A stretch of 39,248 nucleotides of DNA from positions 1-39,248 of the forward strand of contig CAKZLM010000055.1 in NCBI GenBank assembly GCA_937126915.1. Direction: 5' to 3'. The notes beneath the pieces are model-generated. The model worked only from the letters and a program-made list of their open reading frames with translations. It did no database searches and was not told where the DNA came from. How positions within the stretch are numbered: the first letter of the stretch is position 1; the number at the start of each line of letters is the position of its first letter. The stretch comes from an uncultured Alphaproteobacteria bacterium. Its GTDB lineage: Bacteria > Pseudomonadota > Alphaproteobacteria > Sphingomonadales > SMXR01. This document shows, piece by piece, positions 26,329-29,987 of the stretch. The position numbers were made by a program, and so were the translations under genes.

Positions 26329-26357
26329 AAAAAAGGGACGGTCTTACAAACAGACCG
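26329..26357 (-). terminator. Rho-independent terminator of the propeller/FliL-like pair
   Basis: On the minus strand CGGTCT-GTTTGTA-AGACCG (26357-26339) is followed by TCCCTTTTTT. It begins 9 nt after the stop codon at 26366, so it ends the two-gene transcript and insulates the DASS gene. Confidence 0.8.
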
Positions 26358-26365
26358 GATCGCGC

Positions 26366-26812
26366 TTATAAACTACCGCGCTGCACAACAGCGGCATCAA
26401 TGAAGATCTCAGCTTTATCTTTACCCACCACTTTGTCTAAAGATCGCTGCATAAAAACATCCAACAATTTGATGTTAACGGGTTCATCGGCCCGAAATCG
26501 AAGCCGCGCCAGACGGGTGACATCAGTATAAAGGGTGGCAATAATTTTAGGCACCATCGCATTAACATCGCCATAATTGCCATCGTCAGCCATGCCAATA
26601 TGATAGCGAATGATCAATATCCCCTCATTCACCTGCCCACGATAAAGATTGATCAATAAAGGATCCATCTCAATATCGCTTTCTTGCTCAACCGCTTCTT
26701 GATTTTCTTCTTCTTGTGCAAACGCTTTGTGATCAGGCACCATCAGCGATAAGACCAGCACCAATAGTGACCATTTAAAAGTATTTGTAAGATTGTTTAA
26801 GCAAAAACCCAT
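26366..26812 (-). CDS. Secreted FliL-like protein (tentative)
   Basis: This 148-residue protein has a signal peptide (SLLVLVLSLMVPDHKAFA, then Q, about residue 32) and an acidic start (EEENQEAVEQESD). It then has a domain of about 100 residues: MDPLLINLYRG, a strand pair, MVPKIIATLYTDVTRL, VNIKLLDVFMQRSLDKVVGK and the end AEIFIDAAVVQRG. The order of a DP-NL strand, then a P-x-I helix, a long helix and a final strand ending V-V-Q recalls FliL of the flagellar basal body. The match is by pattern only. FliL normally has a membrane anchor, whereas this looks cleaved and periplasmic. The ATG overlaps the stop of the upstream 1000-residue gene by one base, implying coupling and a shared job. Confidence 0.6.
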   Translation of the reverse strand: MGFCLNNLTNTFKWSLLVLVLSLMVPDHKAFAQEEENQEAVEQESDIEMDPLLINLYRGQVNEGILIIRYHIGMADDGNYGDVNAMVPKIIATLYTDVTRLARLRFRADEPVNIKLLDVFMQRSLDKVVGKDKAEIFIDAAVVQRGSL

Positions 26813-29800
26813 TAGACAATAAATCCAGAGTTTGATGAGAAGTTTAACGATTGAACCCGCAACAAGGCATCTTGGAATTCTGCCGTGCGTTGCGCCAAAT
26901 AAGCTGGCGGCGGACCAAAATTATTGCTTTTTTGAGACAATTGCAAATCAACCACGCTAAAAGTCAAAGAACGGAAAGCACGCTCAATTGTGCCCATTGC
27001 ATCGCCTAATTTATTGAAAACATATTTAGCCGTGGTTTTGTCACCTAGGTTAAAGCCTGGATCAATGCCCAAAGCAAACAAACCACCTAAATCATTTTCA
27101 TCCAACTTACCATCGGCCATTTTATTGGAGGTGAATAATTTTTCGCTTGAAATTAAACGGGTTGGCTCCAGCCCTAAACCAGCAAGCGCATCTTGTCCTT
27201 CTTTACCAGCAAAAAACTCAATCTCACTACCGTTTTTGGCTTTGATTTGAAGCTGCGGATTAGAAGTTTTTGACAATACCTCTGCCTCAATACCACGGAA
27301 AGACAGCGTGTTTAGCTTACGCGCCAACGTGCTGTAGGTGTCACCTTCATTAATGGTGATTTTGCGCTTCGCACCGCCATCGACAGAAACATAGAAAAAG
27401 TCGCCATCATTGACAGATGTTTGGTTCACAATATCCCGAACCTGATCTTGGTGGACATCACCGCTTGGTAAGCCCAAGGCCCCCAAAACAGATGACCCTT
27501 TATCGGTAAAAGCAAGGCTGGTGGCTTTGGTTTCGCCAAAGGCTTGACCATATTGTTCGACATAACCAAGGGTGCCTGTTGTGCCATCAATTTTGGCAGC
27601 AAAGGCATCAATGTTGCCTTGGCGTTCGTTGGTGCCAATGGCACTGCGGGTTTCACCTGCCACATAAACATTACCATTAGTGGCAACCACATCGGCAATT
27701 TTATCGGTGCTGTCACCGCCAATGAAGGTTGTGAAATCAGCCGTAAGGCTGGCACCATTATCGGTAAAACCTGTAACATACCCATCTTGACCACCGCCAT
27801 GAGCATTGGTCACTGACGCTGCGCCACCGGTGTAAGAGGCATTATCAGTGGTGCCTGCAATATAAACTTTTGAGCCATCAACCGCCAAGCCCGCCAATCC
27901 ATCGGCGTTCATGGCGCCTAAAGAATGAGAATAAACCTCGGTACTTAAGTCGGTGGCATCGATTTTTTTCAAATAACCAATACCATCTTCATAGGTGGTC
28001 ATCATCAGATCACCATCACTAGCAAAGGCAATGTCACGAATGGCTTCAGATCCAGCACCGCCAAAGACGGTTGAATTTACTAAGGTACCAGTTGAGCCAT
28101 CCACCTTTAACAATAAGTTATCCGATGAACCACCACCATATCCTGAGGTCGAAGAAATAGACCCGCTGGCGCTACCACCAATAATAATATCATCGTTCAC
28201 ATCAATGGCCACAGAAACGCCCGAGGTAGCAGAGAAACTATCCAATTGATAACGAAACTTTTCTGTGCCTTGACTGTCAAACTTAGCCACAAAGGCATCT
28301 GTCGTACCTTTAATATTATCAGTACCACTAAGGTCACTGGTGGTTTTACCTGTAACGATTACATTGTCGTTGCTATCAAGAGCAATATCAAAGCCTTCAG
28401 CACTGCTATCAGCGCCAAGAAGGCGGCTGAACATCACATTACCATTGCTATCAACTTTGGTTAGGAACACATCGCCACTGGTGGAATCGTTTAATTGGCT
28501 ACCCATTGACCCTTCGGCGGTCCCCACAATATAGCTGTAACCTTGGCTATCCACCACCACCGCATTAGGGGTGGTTTTTGCCAAAACCGGATCGTCAAAA
28601 CCGTCAGATGTGTTTGAGGTGTCTTTACTGTTGAAGGTTTCTTCTTCAGTTGTGGTGTCTTCTTCATCATCTTCCACCACCGTTGTGCCTGTTAAGCTCT
28701 CAAATTTTGCCAGGGCGCTGGTTTCTTCTTCCTCACTCCCTGCCGCGGCTTCTTTGATGCGTGACGAATCATCATCAACACTGCGAACCAAAACTTCATC
28801 GGTGGTAGAGCGGGTTGGGTCAACGCTTTCAACATCGTTAAAACGTGTTAAAAGGCCCGTTTCAGGATCGTCTTCGTTAAATGTACTGCGGGTCGAACTA
28901 ATTACCAAAGACGGATCACTGGTGGTGGCAGAAAAGTTTACTTGCTCGGTCGATGAGCCATCAATTTGGATAAAATAATCATTATTATCATCACGACCGA
29001 CAGAAAAATTGGTCACATATTTGGGCACTTGTGTGCCACTACCATCGTCAACGGTAACAGCGTCAATTTCTTGGTTAATAAGATCAACCAACTTATTGAT
29101 GGAAATATCACCGGTGATTTTTGACATATCAATCAACACATCATCAAAATCACCGCTTAAATTTTTGGTTAGACGCACCGTGAATGTATCGCTGGCCGAA
29201 ACACCGGCCATCGGGTCATCAGCACTACCCTTTTGCGAAACATCCCCTAGGTAAGTGTATGAATTATCACCCAAGCGAGCGGTGGTTTTAATGTCATCAT
29301 TTTTTTCATTTAATACCAATGACAATTTCTCAGTTTCCGCGGTGGGAAGATAATTAATCACTTCCTGAATACCGCCTAAAAACTGGGTGTTTAAACGCGC
29401 AAGAGAGGATTCAGGTGTGGTTTTTTGCGATCCATATTCCGCAATGGTTTTTAAGGCATCAAGAGCCTTATAGAGCGTAAACAATGTTTTCGCGTCTTTG
29501 CTTTCACCAGCAAGGCGTACATCTGGATCACGTTCATTGATGAATTTTGATAATTTACGAACCTCACCAATTCTAGAATTTAGTGAGCGCTCTGACGCCA
29601 ACAACCCCTCTTGGGTTTTCCAAGGTGGGATTACATCAATAGGACCAAGGCCTAGCAGTTTTTCTTGTGCCGCAAACGTGCCCGCACCCAAGTTTGAAGT
29701 CGATGCCGTTTGGCTTAAAACTTTCGCGTTTAGGGCAGCACCAATTAAGCTGGTATCCATCTGGATCAGCTGAAAGGTTCTTTGTTGCTGTTGTCCGCCT

Positions 29801-29814
29801 ACCGGAAAAAACAT
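26812..29814 (-). CDS. Large propeller protein with flagellar-axial-like flanks
   Basis: The protein has 1000 residues and no signal peptide. The ATG at 29814 has GAGGG upstream; an in-frame ATG at 29760 is the alternative. In order: a helical N-terminus (about 1-180); a segment with DTFTVRLTKNLSG and DISINKLVDLINQEI (about 205-330); an acidic Thr/Glu-rich linker (about 350-420); an SBBP-like propeller (about 425-780) with recurring blades such as GDVFLTKVDSNGNVMFSRLL and YIVGTAEG; a segment with DGDFFYVSVDGGAKRKITI and GDTYSTLARKLNTL (about 800-880); and a helical C-terminus. Strand-rich segments followed by a D(T/S)L-type helix resemble FliD or flagellin domains, and lack of a signal peptide fits type III flagellar export. 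Caulobacter FlaEY-type proteins are a possible comparison, unverified. No other flagellar genes are nearby. Confidence 0.65.
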   Translation of the reverse strand: MFFPVGGQQQQRTFQLIQMDTSLIGAALNAKVLSQTASTSNLGAGTFAAQEKLLGLGPIDVIPPWKTQEGLLASERSLNSRIGEVRKLSKFINERDPDVRLAGESKDAKTLFTLYKALDALKTIAEYGSQKTTPESSLARLNTQFLGGIQEVINYLPTAETEKLSLVLNEKNDDIKTTARLGDNSYTYLGDVSQKGSADDPMAGVSASDTFTVRLTKNLSGDFDDVLIDMSKITGDISINKLVDLINQEIDAVTVDDGSGTQVPKYVTNFSVGRDDNNDYFIQIDGSSTEQVNFSATTSDPSLVISSTRSTFNEDDPETGLLTRFNDVESVDPTRSTTDEVLVRSVDDDSSRIKEAAAGSEEEETSALAKFESLTGTTVVEDDEEDTTTEEETFNSKDTSNTSDGFDDPVLAKTTPNAVVVDSQGYSYIVGTAEGSMGSQLNDSTSGDVFLTKVDSNGNVMFSRLLGADSSAEGFDIALDSNDNVIVTGKTTSDLSGTDNIKGTTDAFVAKFDSQGTEKFRYQLDSFSATSGVSVAIDVNDDIIIGGSASGSISSTSGYGGGSSDNLLLKVDGSTGTLVNSTVFGGAGSEAIRDIAFASDGDLMMTTYEDGIGYLKKIDATDLSTEVYSHSLGAMNADGLAGLAVDGSKVYIAGTTDNASYTGGAASVTNAHGGGQDGYVTGFTDNGASLTADFTTFIGGDSTDKIADVVATNGNVYVAGETRSAIGTNERQGNIDAFAAKIDGTTGTLGYVEQYGQAFGETKATSLAFTDKGSSVLGALGLPSGDVHQDQVRDIVNQTSVNDGDFFYVSVDGGAKRKITINEGDTYSTLARKLNTLSFRGIEAEVLSKTSNPQLQIKAKNGSEIEFFAGKEGQDALAGLGLEPTRLISSEKLFTSNKMADGKLDENDLGGLFALGIDPGFNLGDKTTAKYVFNKLGDAMGTIERAFRSLTFSVVDLQLSQKSNNFGPPPAYLAQRTAEFQDALLRVQSLNFSSNSGFIV

Positions 29815-29987
29815 GCGCTACCCTCAAACAAGGTGTTAATTGCCGCATCAGATCGGCAAAATTTACCTACTTAAAGGCAAAACTTACCTATCTCGCACAA
29901 AAGTCCAATCTCACCCTTAAACTAGATTCGCTTGATTCTCCAAAGGCTTCACCCTAACATGATCATCAATAAGCTGAACCAATTAGC

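Follow-up and report, generated by a model that had tools for sequence, protein, structure and literature searches.

A propeller-bearing candidate filament cap and its FliL-fold partner in FliD-less alphaproteobacteria

Introduction

How do flagellated alphaproteobacteria that lack the cap protein FliD cap or grow their filaments? FliD has been reported missing in flagellated Rhizobiaceae (PMC6913195), in flagellated Phaeobacter (PMC12363192) and, together with FliS and FliT, in the genome of Rhodothalassium salexigens, for which flagella are reported (PMC11762602); the parts of these texts that were accessible offer no explanation. The question is raised here by two adjoining genes in a stretch of 39,248 nucleotides (the window; contig CAKZLM010000055.1 of assembly GCA_937126915.1) from an uncultured alphaproteobacterium of the Sphingomonadales. 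The large gene encodes a 1000-residue beta-propeller protein and the small gene a 148-residue protein with a FliL-like fold. A preliminary description, made from the letters alone, had proposed a flagellum- or secretion-associated surface protein. Here, we find that in the sampled genomes the large protein nearly always accompanies flagellin and is never found together with FliD. It is quite probably an axial protein of the flagellum, and we propose it as a specific, conserved candidate cap for part of the FliD-less flagellated alphaproteobacteria.

Occurrence of the large protein, flagellin and FliD

The distribution of the three proteins was analyzed in a sample of 60 genomes, including that of the window. 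The large protein was present in 44 of them, flagellin in 53 and FliD in 11. The 53 flagellin-containing genomes comprised 42 with the large protein only and 11 with FliD only; none had both and none had neither. The window's own genome had no FliD_N match. Among the genomes without detected flagellin, four (G003, G006, G007 and G049) lacked the large protein, and one (G005) had a 76-residue propeller match only and was not counted as a bearer (the raw tally was 45).

A class-wide sample of 289 genomes, again including that of the window, yielded 24 clear bearers and 65 genomes with FliD, the two sets not overlapping; in two of the 65, the FliD match fell below the cut-off. Flagellin was detected in 23 of these 24 bearers, the exception (G080) having its match in a 191-residue frame, and in 42 of the 44 bearers of the 60-genome sample. 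The 182 class-wide flagellin genomes included 23 with the large protein, 64 with FliD, none with both and 95 with neither (Fisher P=2.8e-5 for the large protein versus FliD, uncorrected for relatedness). Bearers belonged to 15 families and FliD genomes to 44, none of them common to both. A wider C-terminal profile recovered the same 24 clear bearers and two borderline genomes (G246 and G339), both among the 95. Three to four class-wide bearers were flagged with one stop (G110, G125, G222 and G289); in G110 (L220) and G222 (L219), the open reading frame (ORF) is intact to the C-terminus despite the flag.

Named genomes gave no relative when scanned with one sequence alone; an alignment-based scan succeeded. 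R. salexigens proved to be a bearer (L094). The control genome of Caulobacter vibrioides contained flagellin and had no FliD_N match. It should be noted that two loci of the Emcibacteraceae (L103:6807-9854 and L091:9992-13057) carry a longer, more divergent homologue; alignments A3 and A4 were made without L103, and A6 holds 41 of the 50 aligned sequences. A second copy or pieces of the large gene were seen in G025, G034, G044, G047 and G059.

Structure of the large protein

Pfam searches of the large protein (E≤1) gave SBBP propeller repeats only. An AlphaFold2 model built with 21 homologues (mean predicted local distance difference test score, pLDDT, of 76) starts with helices and a beta domain; a disordered linker leads on to the propeller, after which come another beta domain and the helices of the C-terminus. 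The propeller aligned with the CylK structure at Z 42 across 352-363 residues and with its sequence at ∼23% identity, and Foldseek and VIA searches with the whole model found mostly propellers among the matches listed. Thus, the propeller noted in the preliminary description was borne out, and no signal peptide could be seen, again as described there.

The same description had likened both flanks to FliD- or flagellin-type domains, which held for one of them. Searched against PDB (E≤1), a profile of 29 C-terminal flanks matched only two distinct sequences, both of which were FliD (flagellar hook-associated protein 2; E=6.4e-5 and 2.2e-4). An hhalign comparison of this flank with a FliD profile (11 alphaproteobacterial sequences) gave an E-value of 5.2e-7 and a probability of 92% over 79 columns. 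Of the 29 members, 12 matched the Flagellin_IN model at E≤1, the lowest E-value being 2.3e-5; the window copy scored 15.4 bits, under the 22.7-bit cut-off. In the class-wide scan, the C-terminal profile had weak matches in 22 genomes, of which seven (G017, G099, G105, G159, G176, G231 and G241) had them on the FliD reading frame; the few others that were examined included matches on ORFs read as FlgK (L170), FlgE (L167) and an autotransporter (L168). These matches indicate that the IN-type module is mainly flagellar and not specific to FliD. The N-terminal flank, helical and then beta in the model, had no convincing match: its best E-value against PDB was 0.36, and it was rejected as FliD-like, its profile alignment to FliD having a probability of 5% only.

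Cysteine depletion and promoter motif

Cysteine depletion is expected for proteins that pass the flagellar export channel and for axial proteins; a literature search on such depletion in axial proteins gave no match. We counted cysteines in 44 distinct homologues (the 50 aligned ones include six exact duplicates from two copies of the same contig) and found 10 in 41,497 residues with starts as called, or two in 40,686 residues after the conserved start. The FliD comparison set had none in 6,327 residues, and six of the seven flagellins of the window's genome were likewise free of cysteine, the seventh having two in a 298-residue frame. Background ORFs (n=161) contained 7.9 cysteines per 1000 residues, and two clusters taken as Sec-exported TonB receptors contained 5.2 and 4.4.

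Two exact copies of the palindrome GGYAA-N3-TTRCC lie upstream of the large gene and are the only exact copies listed for the window. Presumably, they resemble the ftr site of FlbD; a literature search for the FlbD ftr consensus gave no match. With at most one mismatch, the start regions (240 bp each) from 37 homologues contained 22 sites versus 1.06 expected, and bearing loci numbered 12 of 37 (9 of the 21 loci of the order and 3 of the 16 others). Because the large gene's upstream region is where the palindrome was first spotted by eye, this enrichment is partly circular. The independent test was therefore 20 flagellin upstream regions of relatives, fetched after the flagellar sites of the window's own genome had been seen: at the same tolerance, they held 27 sites versus 0.88 expected, in 13 of the 20 regions. 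All ten source genomes belong to family f4, and two of them closely resemble each other; the start of the flagellin gene was taken to lie at about base 600. Control regions (n=230) had 12 palindrome sites. A separate palindrome for the small gene was absent from 17 of 18 upstream regions, the remaining one (L036) having a one-mismatch site. For the large gene, a sigma-54 promoter was also considered and rejected; the best match was rarer than 1 in 20 shuffles in only two of the 37 loci (L031 and L036), in both cases past the start codon. Taken together, absence of a visible signal peptide, cysteine poverty and apparent flagellar regulation give the large protein the traits of the axial class.

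Genomic context

The window's own genome is flagellated, with seven flagellin matches above the cut-off and one below. It also encodes a canonical FliL adjoining FliM, separate from the small protein, and an FlgL-like protein (FlgL by reading) with flagellin N- and C-terminal matches. The surroundings of the large gene were scanned by BLAST at 1e-6 with 17 reference proteins from flagellar clusters, all Pfam-checked except an FlgN-like protein (no Pfam match) and DksA (assigned by eye). In none of the 21 loci of the order (the window and 20 relatives, 10.8-39 kb each) was there a match to this set. Within the stretch read, the pair does lie away from flagellar genes, as first described, yet in a genome that has them.

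Beyond these 21 loci, flagellar genes were present in the stretch read for 7 of 20 class-wide loci (two of which are shorter than 11 kb), as well as for L140, L115 and L102. The homologue stands beside an FlgN-like gene, FlgJ and FlgI in L201, L211, L217 and L218, and near FlgI, FliX, FliG, FliF and FliN in L215; it adjoins flagellin in L220, and in L203 a flagellin lies 14 kb off. Three flagellins each were found in L115 (Oceanicaulis) and L102 (Minwuiaceae). In L140 (NZ_CP081002.1, 429632-456193), on a 1.25-Mb Sphingobium plasmid typed as conjugative, FliF, FliG, FliN, FliQ and MotB surround the homologue; its relation to the window at the order level is not established.

Other neighbors were seen as well. 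In another alphaproteobacterial group (L105, L107, L109, L111, L112 and L117), the homologue is beside genes that by eye are of sugar-nucleotide or heptose type, perhaps for glycosylation. Large TonB-dependent-receptor-like ORFs adjoin the pair downstream in L033, L035 and L049.

The small gene and its product

The two minus-strand genes share one base, the stop of the large gene and the start of the small gene being joined as TAATG, and a hairpin with a T-run follows directly 3' of the small gene. Both features had been proposed before and were found. Terminator-like sites are not enriched in the region (five observed versus 3.9 in shuffles, s.d. 2.0), so only the position of the hairpin is telling.

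The small protein had likewise been described as FliL-like with a cleavable signal peptide. By fold, this was right. Its model (pLDDT 85) had FliL structures as best Foldseek matches (6ahq, E=3.3e-4) and aligned by VIA with FliL 6ahp at Z 11.2 and a root-mean-square deviation of 2.9 over 99 residues. Among 19 members, five matched the FliL Pfam model at E≤1, with 1.9e-4 as the lowest E-value; the window copy matched no Pfam family at E≤1 and did not reach the FliL cut-off. Its N-terminus, read by eye, has a hydrophobic core followed by AFA and then Q, which is consistent with a cleavage site of AxA type.

A homologue of the small gene lies 3' of the large gene in 19 of the 21 loci of the order, 16 identified by BLAST (the window included) and three (L034, L036 and L048) first assigned by position and pattern. 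At E≤2.4e-23, the small protein was present in 43 of the 44 bearers and in no non-bearer; the only bearer without it (G019) has its large gene cut by a contig edge. Since 19 of the 43 genomes supplied rows of the profile, the independent test is the other bearers, 24 of 25 of which had the small protein. Weak matches with E above 1e-20, in 170-residue FliL-like frames, were not counted (G003 and G019 included). Seven genomes of family f6 (G012, G018, G024, G029, G033, G037 and G040) have kept the small gene although it is unlinked, lying on a different contig or 50 kb or more away. In the loci outside the 21, the small protein was not found; a FliL (E=0.002) was the only match.

Four other loci (L237:4886-5410, L238:5315-5821, L239:5117-5632 and L240:5763-6284) encode a FliL-like protein that has a membrane stretch at its N-terminus. 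It outscores the canonical FliL of the window's own genome against the small-protein profile and, by reading, has ThiL as a neighbor, a proton pyrophosphatase in three of the four, and NusB or riboflavin genes close by; it is possibly a non-flagellar protein of the FliL fold.

Features of the locus

The features of the pair and of its upstream region are listed in Table 1. The genes across the gap upstream of the large gene, which by eye encode YggT, a DUF167 protein and FolD, are oriented in the opposite direction.

Table 1 Features of the gene pair and its surroundings in the window
Feature	Position	Strand	Remarks
Large gene	26812..29814	minus	1000-aa propeller protein, cysteine-free, no signal peptide seen
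Small gene	26366..26812	minus	148-aa FliL-fold protein, probably secreted
TAATG stop/start overlap	26810..26814	minus	possible translational coupling, from sequence
Intrinsic-terminator-like hairpin with T-run	26339..26357	minus	CGGTCT-N7-AGACCG
N-terminal flank, residues 58-345	28780..29643	minus	helices ∼68-158, then beta domain; no confident relative
Beta-propeller, ∼residues 410-770	27505..28587	minus	SBBP repeats; structural alignments also recruit stretch from ∼residue 298
IN-type module, residues 805-884	27163..27402	minus	FliD-aligned part; hhalign, PDB profile, Flagellin_IN
C-terminal helices, residues 926-990	26845..27039	minus	model secondary structure; possible D0/D1-type end, putative role
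Probable cleavable signal peptide, residues 1-32	26717..26812	minus	ends AFA; read from sequence
FliL/SPFH-like domain, residues 43-144	26381..26686	minus	structural alignment to FliL 6ahp
Palindromic site GGYAA-N3-TTRCC, exact	29855..29867	.	sequence
Second palindromic site GGYAA-N3-TTRCC, exact	29876..29888	.	sequence

Function of the pair

The flagellated genome, the co-occurrence with flagellin and the flagellar neighbors in relatives' loci support the earlier suggestion of a flagellum-associated pair. We suggest that the large protein, made without a signal peptide, would leave the cell by the type III channel of the flagellum and become part of the flagellar exterior. Its likeliest place is the tip of the growing filament, where it would act as a cap and take over the work of FliD in FliD-less alphaproteobacteria. 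There, it would attach to the filament by its helical ends, and its IN-type module and propeller would form a plate beneath which flagellin folds. The small protein may be a periplasmic, lineage-specific FliL-fold partner, perhaps aiding the motor or the export channel. We consider a filament cap in the place of FliD about evenly balanced at best, because 95 flagellin genomes have neither protein and because we infer the location at the tip and the phenotype. The fuller proposal, a propeller-bearing cap outside the FliD family that replaces FliD in part of the alphaproteobacteria and has a lineage-specific soluble FliL-fold partner, is put forward tentatively, with slightly less confidence than the cap itself.

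Several observations weigh against a cap or a flagellar role. The preliminary description had named presence of the pair in genomes without flagella as a refutation, and two genomes of the 60-genome sample (G044 and G050) do carry the large gene without detected flagellin, as does the class-wide G080 with its short-frame match. Both genes of G050 (C12) contain in-frame stops, which would fit decay once flagella had been lost. The 95 class-wide genomes show that absence of FliD does not require the large protein. In addition, all 11 FliD genomes of the 60-genome sample belong to one family (f5), and the exclusion between the two proteins rests on few events. FliD_N (PF02465) is absent from the Pfam matches of the large protein at E≤1, and for this reason we do not regard it as a member of the FliD family, although it may work in a FliD-like way. 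The IN-type module lies C-terminal to the propeller and has its weak matches beyond FliD frames too. In the window's own genome, exact palindromes near flagellar genes all fall within coding sequence; the sites in front of a flagellin (L225:6566) and in the interval from FlgI to FliX (L224:11028) are one-mismatch sites only, and locus L226 has no site. Finally, the accessible part of PMC8921679 describes FlaEY and FlaQ, named flagellar genes considered below, as regulators of flagellin expression.

An axial protein located elsewhere, at the hook-filament junction or as a filament decoration or surface adhesin, would be exported alike without being a cap; we think this unlikely, though it deserves serious attention. 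The IN-type module, palindrome and cysteine depletion suit it equally, the module is also found in ORFs read as junction and hook proteins, propellers commonly bind ligands, and 95 flagellin genomes manage with neither protein. However, given the FlgL-like protein in the window's genome, no gap at the junction is evident, and such a role does not by itself explain the exclusion of FliD.

Distinctly improbable is a cytoplasmic regulator of flagellin expression. FlaE and FlaY of Caulobacter are reported to modulate the expression of flagellin and chemotaxis genes, and in a FlaQ mutant of Sphingomonas S2M10 fliC expression was up and flgI down (both in the accessible part of PMC8921679). However, domain searches of the large protein found no regulator domain beside the propeller and IN-type module, cysteine is almost wholly absent, and flagellin expression could change indirectly in a cap mutant. 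Very improbable is a secreted adhesin or surface protein that has no flagellar role and whose occurrence in motile bacteria is incidental: the 21 order loci without reference-set matches and the frequency of propellers among surface proteins would suit it, but there is no visible signal peptide, the promoter motif is common to flagellin genes, other loci have flagellar neighbors, and the large protein is absent from four of the five flagellin-less genomes of families f1 and f5, with a fragment match only in the fifth.

Comparison with known systems

The candidate cap shares its propeller fold and sequence with CylK and SBBP-repeat proteins and differs from them in its flanks and context. With FliD, it has in common the IN-type module and the lack of cysteine, and in sampled genomes each is present only where the other is absent. 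It differs in lacking FliD_N and in having a central propeller, with the module near the C-terminus; its homologues are ∼880-1105 residues long, and most FliD frames have between 474 and ∼1100 residues. In fold, the small protein agrees with FliL (PF03748). It differs in that its N-terminus is a signal peptide, probably a cleavable one, where FliL has a membrane anchor; its window copy has no Pfam match, and it is encoded outside the flagellar operon in a genome with a separate canonical FliL.

FlaEY of Caulobacter and FlaQ of Sphingomonas S2M10 are also named alphaproteobacterial flagellar genes, tied to flagellin expression in the accessible part of PMC8921679, and the Sphingobium and Oceanicaulis relatives of the large protein have flagellar genes nearby. 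In contrast, they are described as regulators and not as structural proteins, the comparison being by description only. By annotation only, they probably belong to the same family as the large protein. If they are homologous, the gene is known by name and its reading as a structural protein is new within the literature searched, in which a query combining flagellar filament, beta-propeller and FliD gave no match. If the candidate cap is real, proteins filed as regulators, such as FlaEY, would be recast as structural components of the flagellum.

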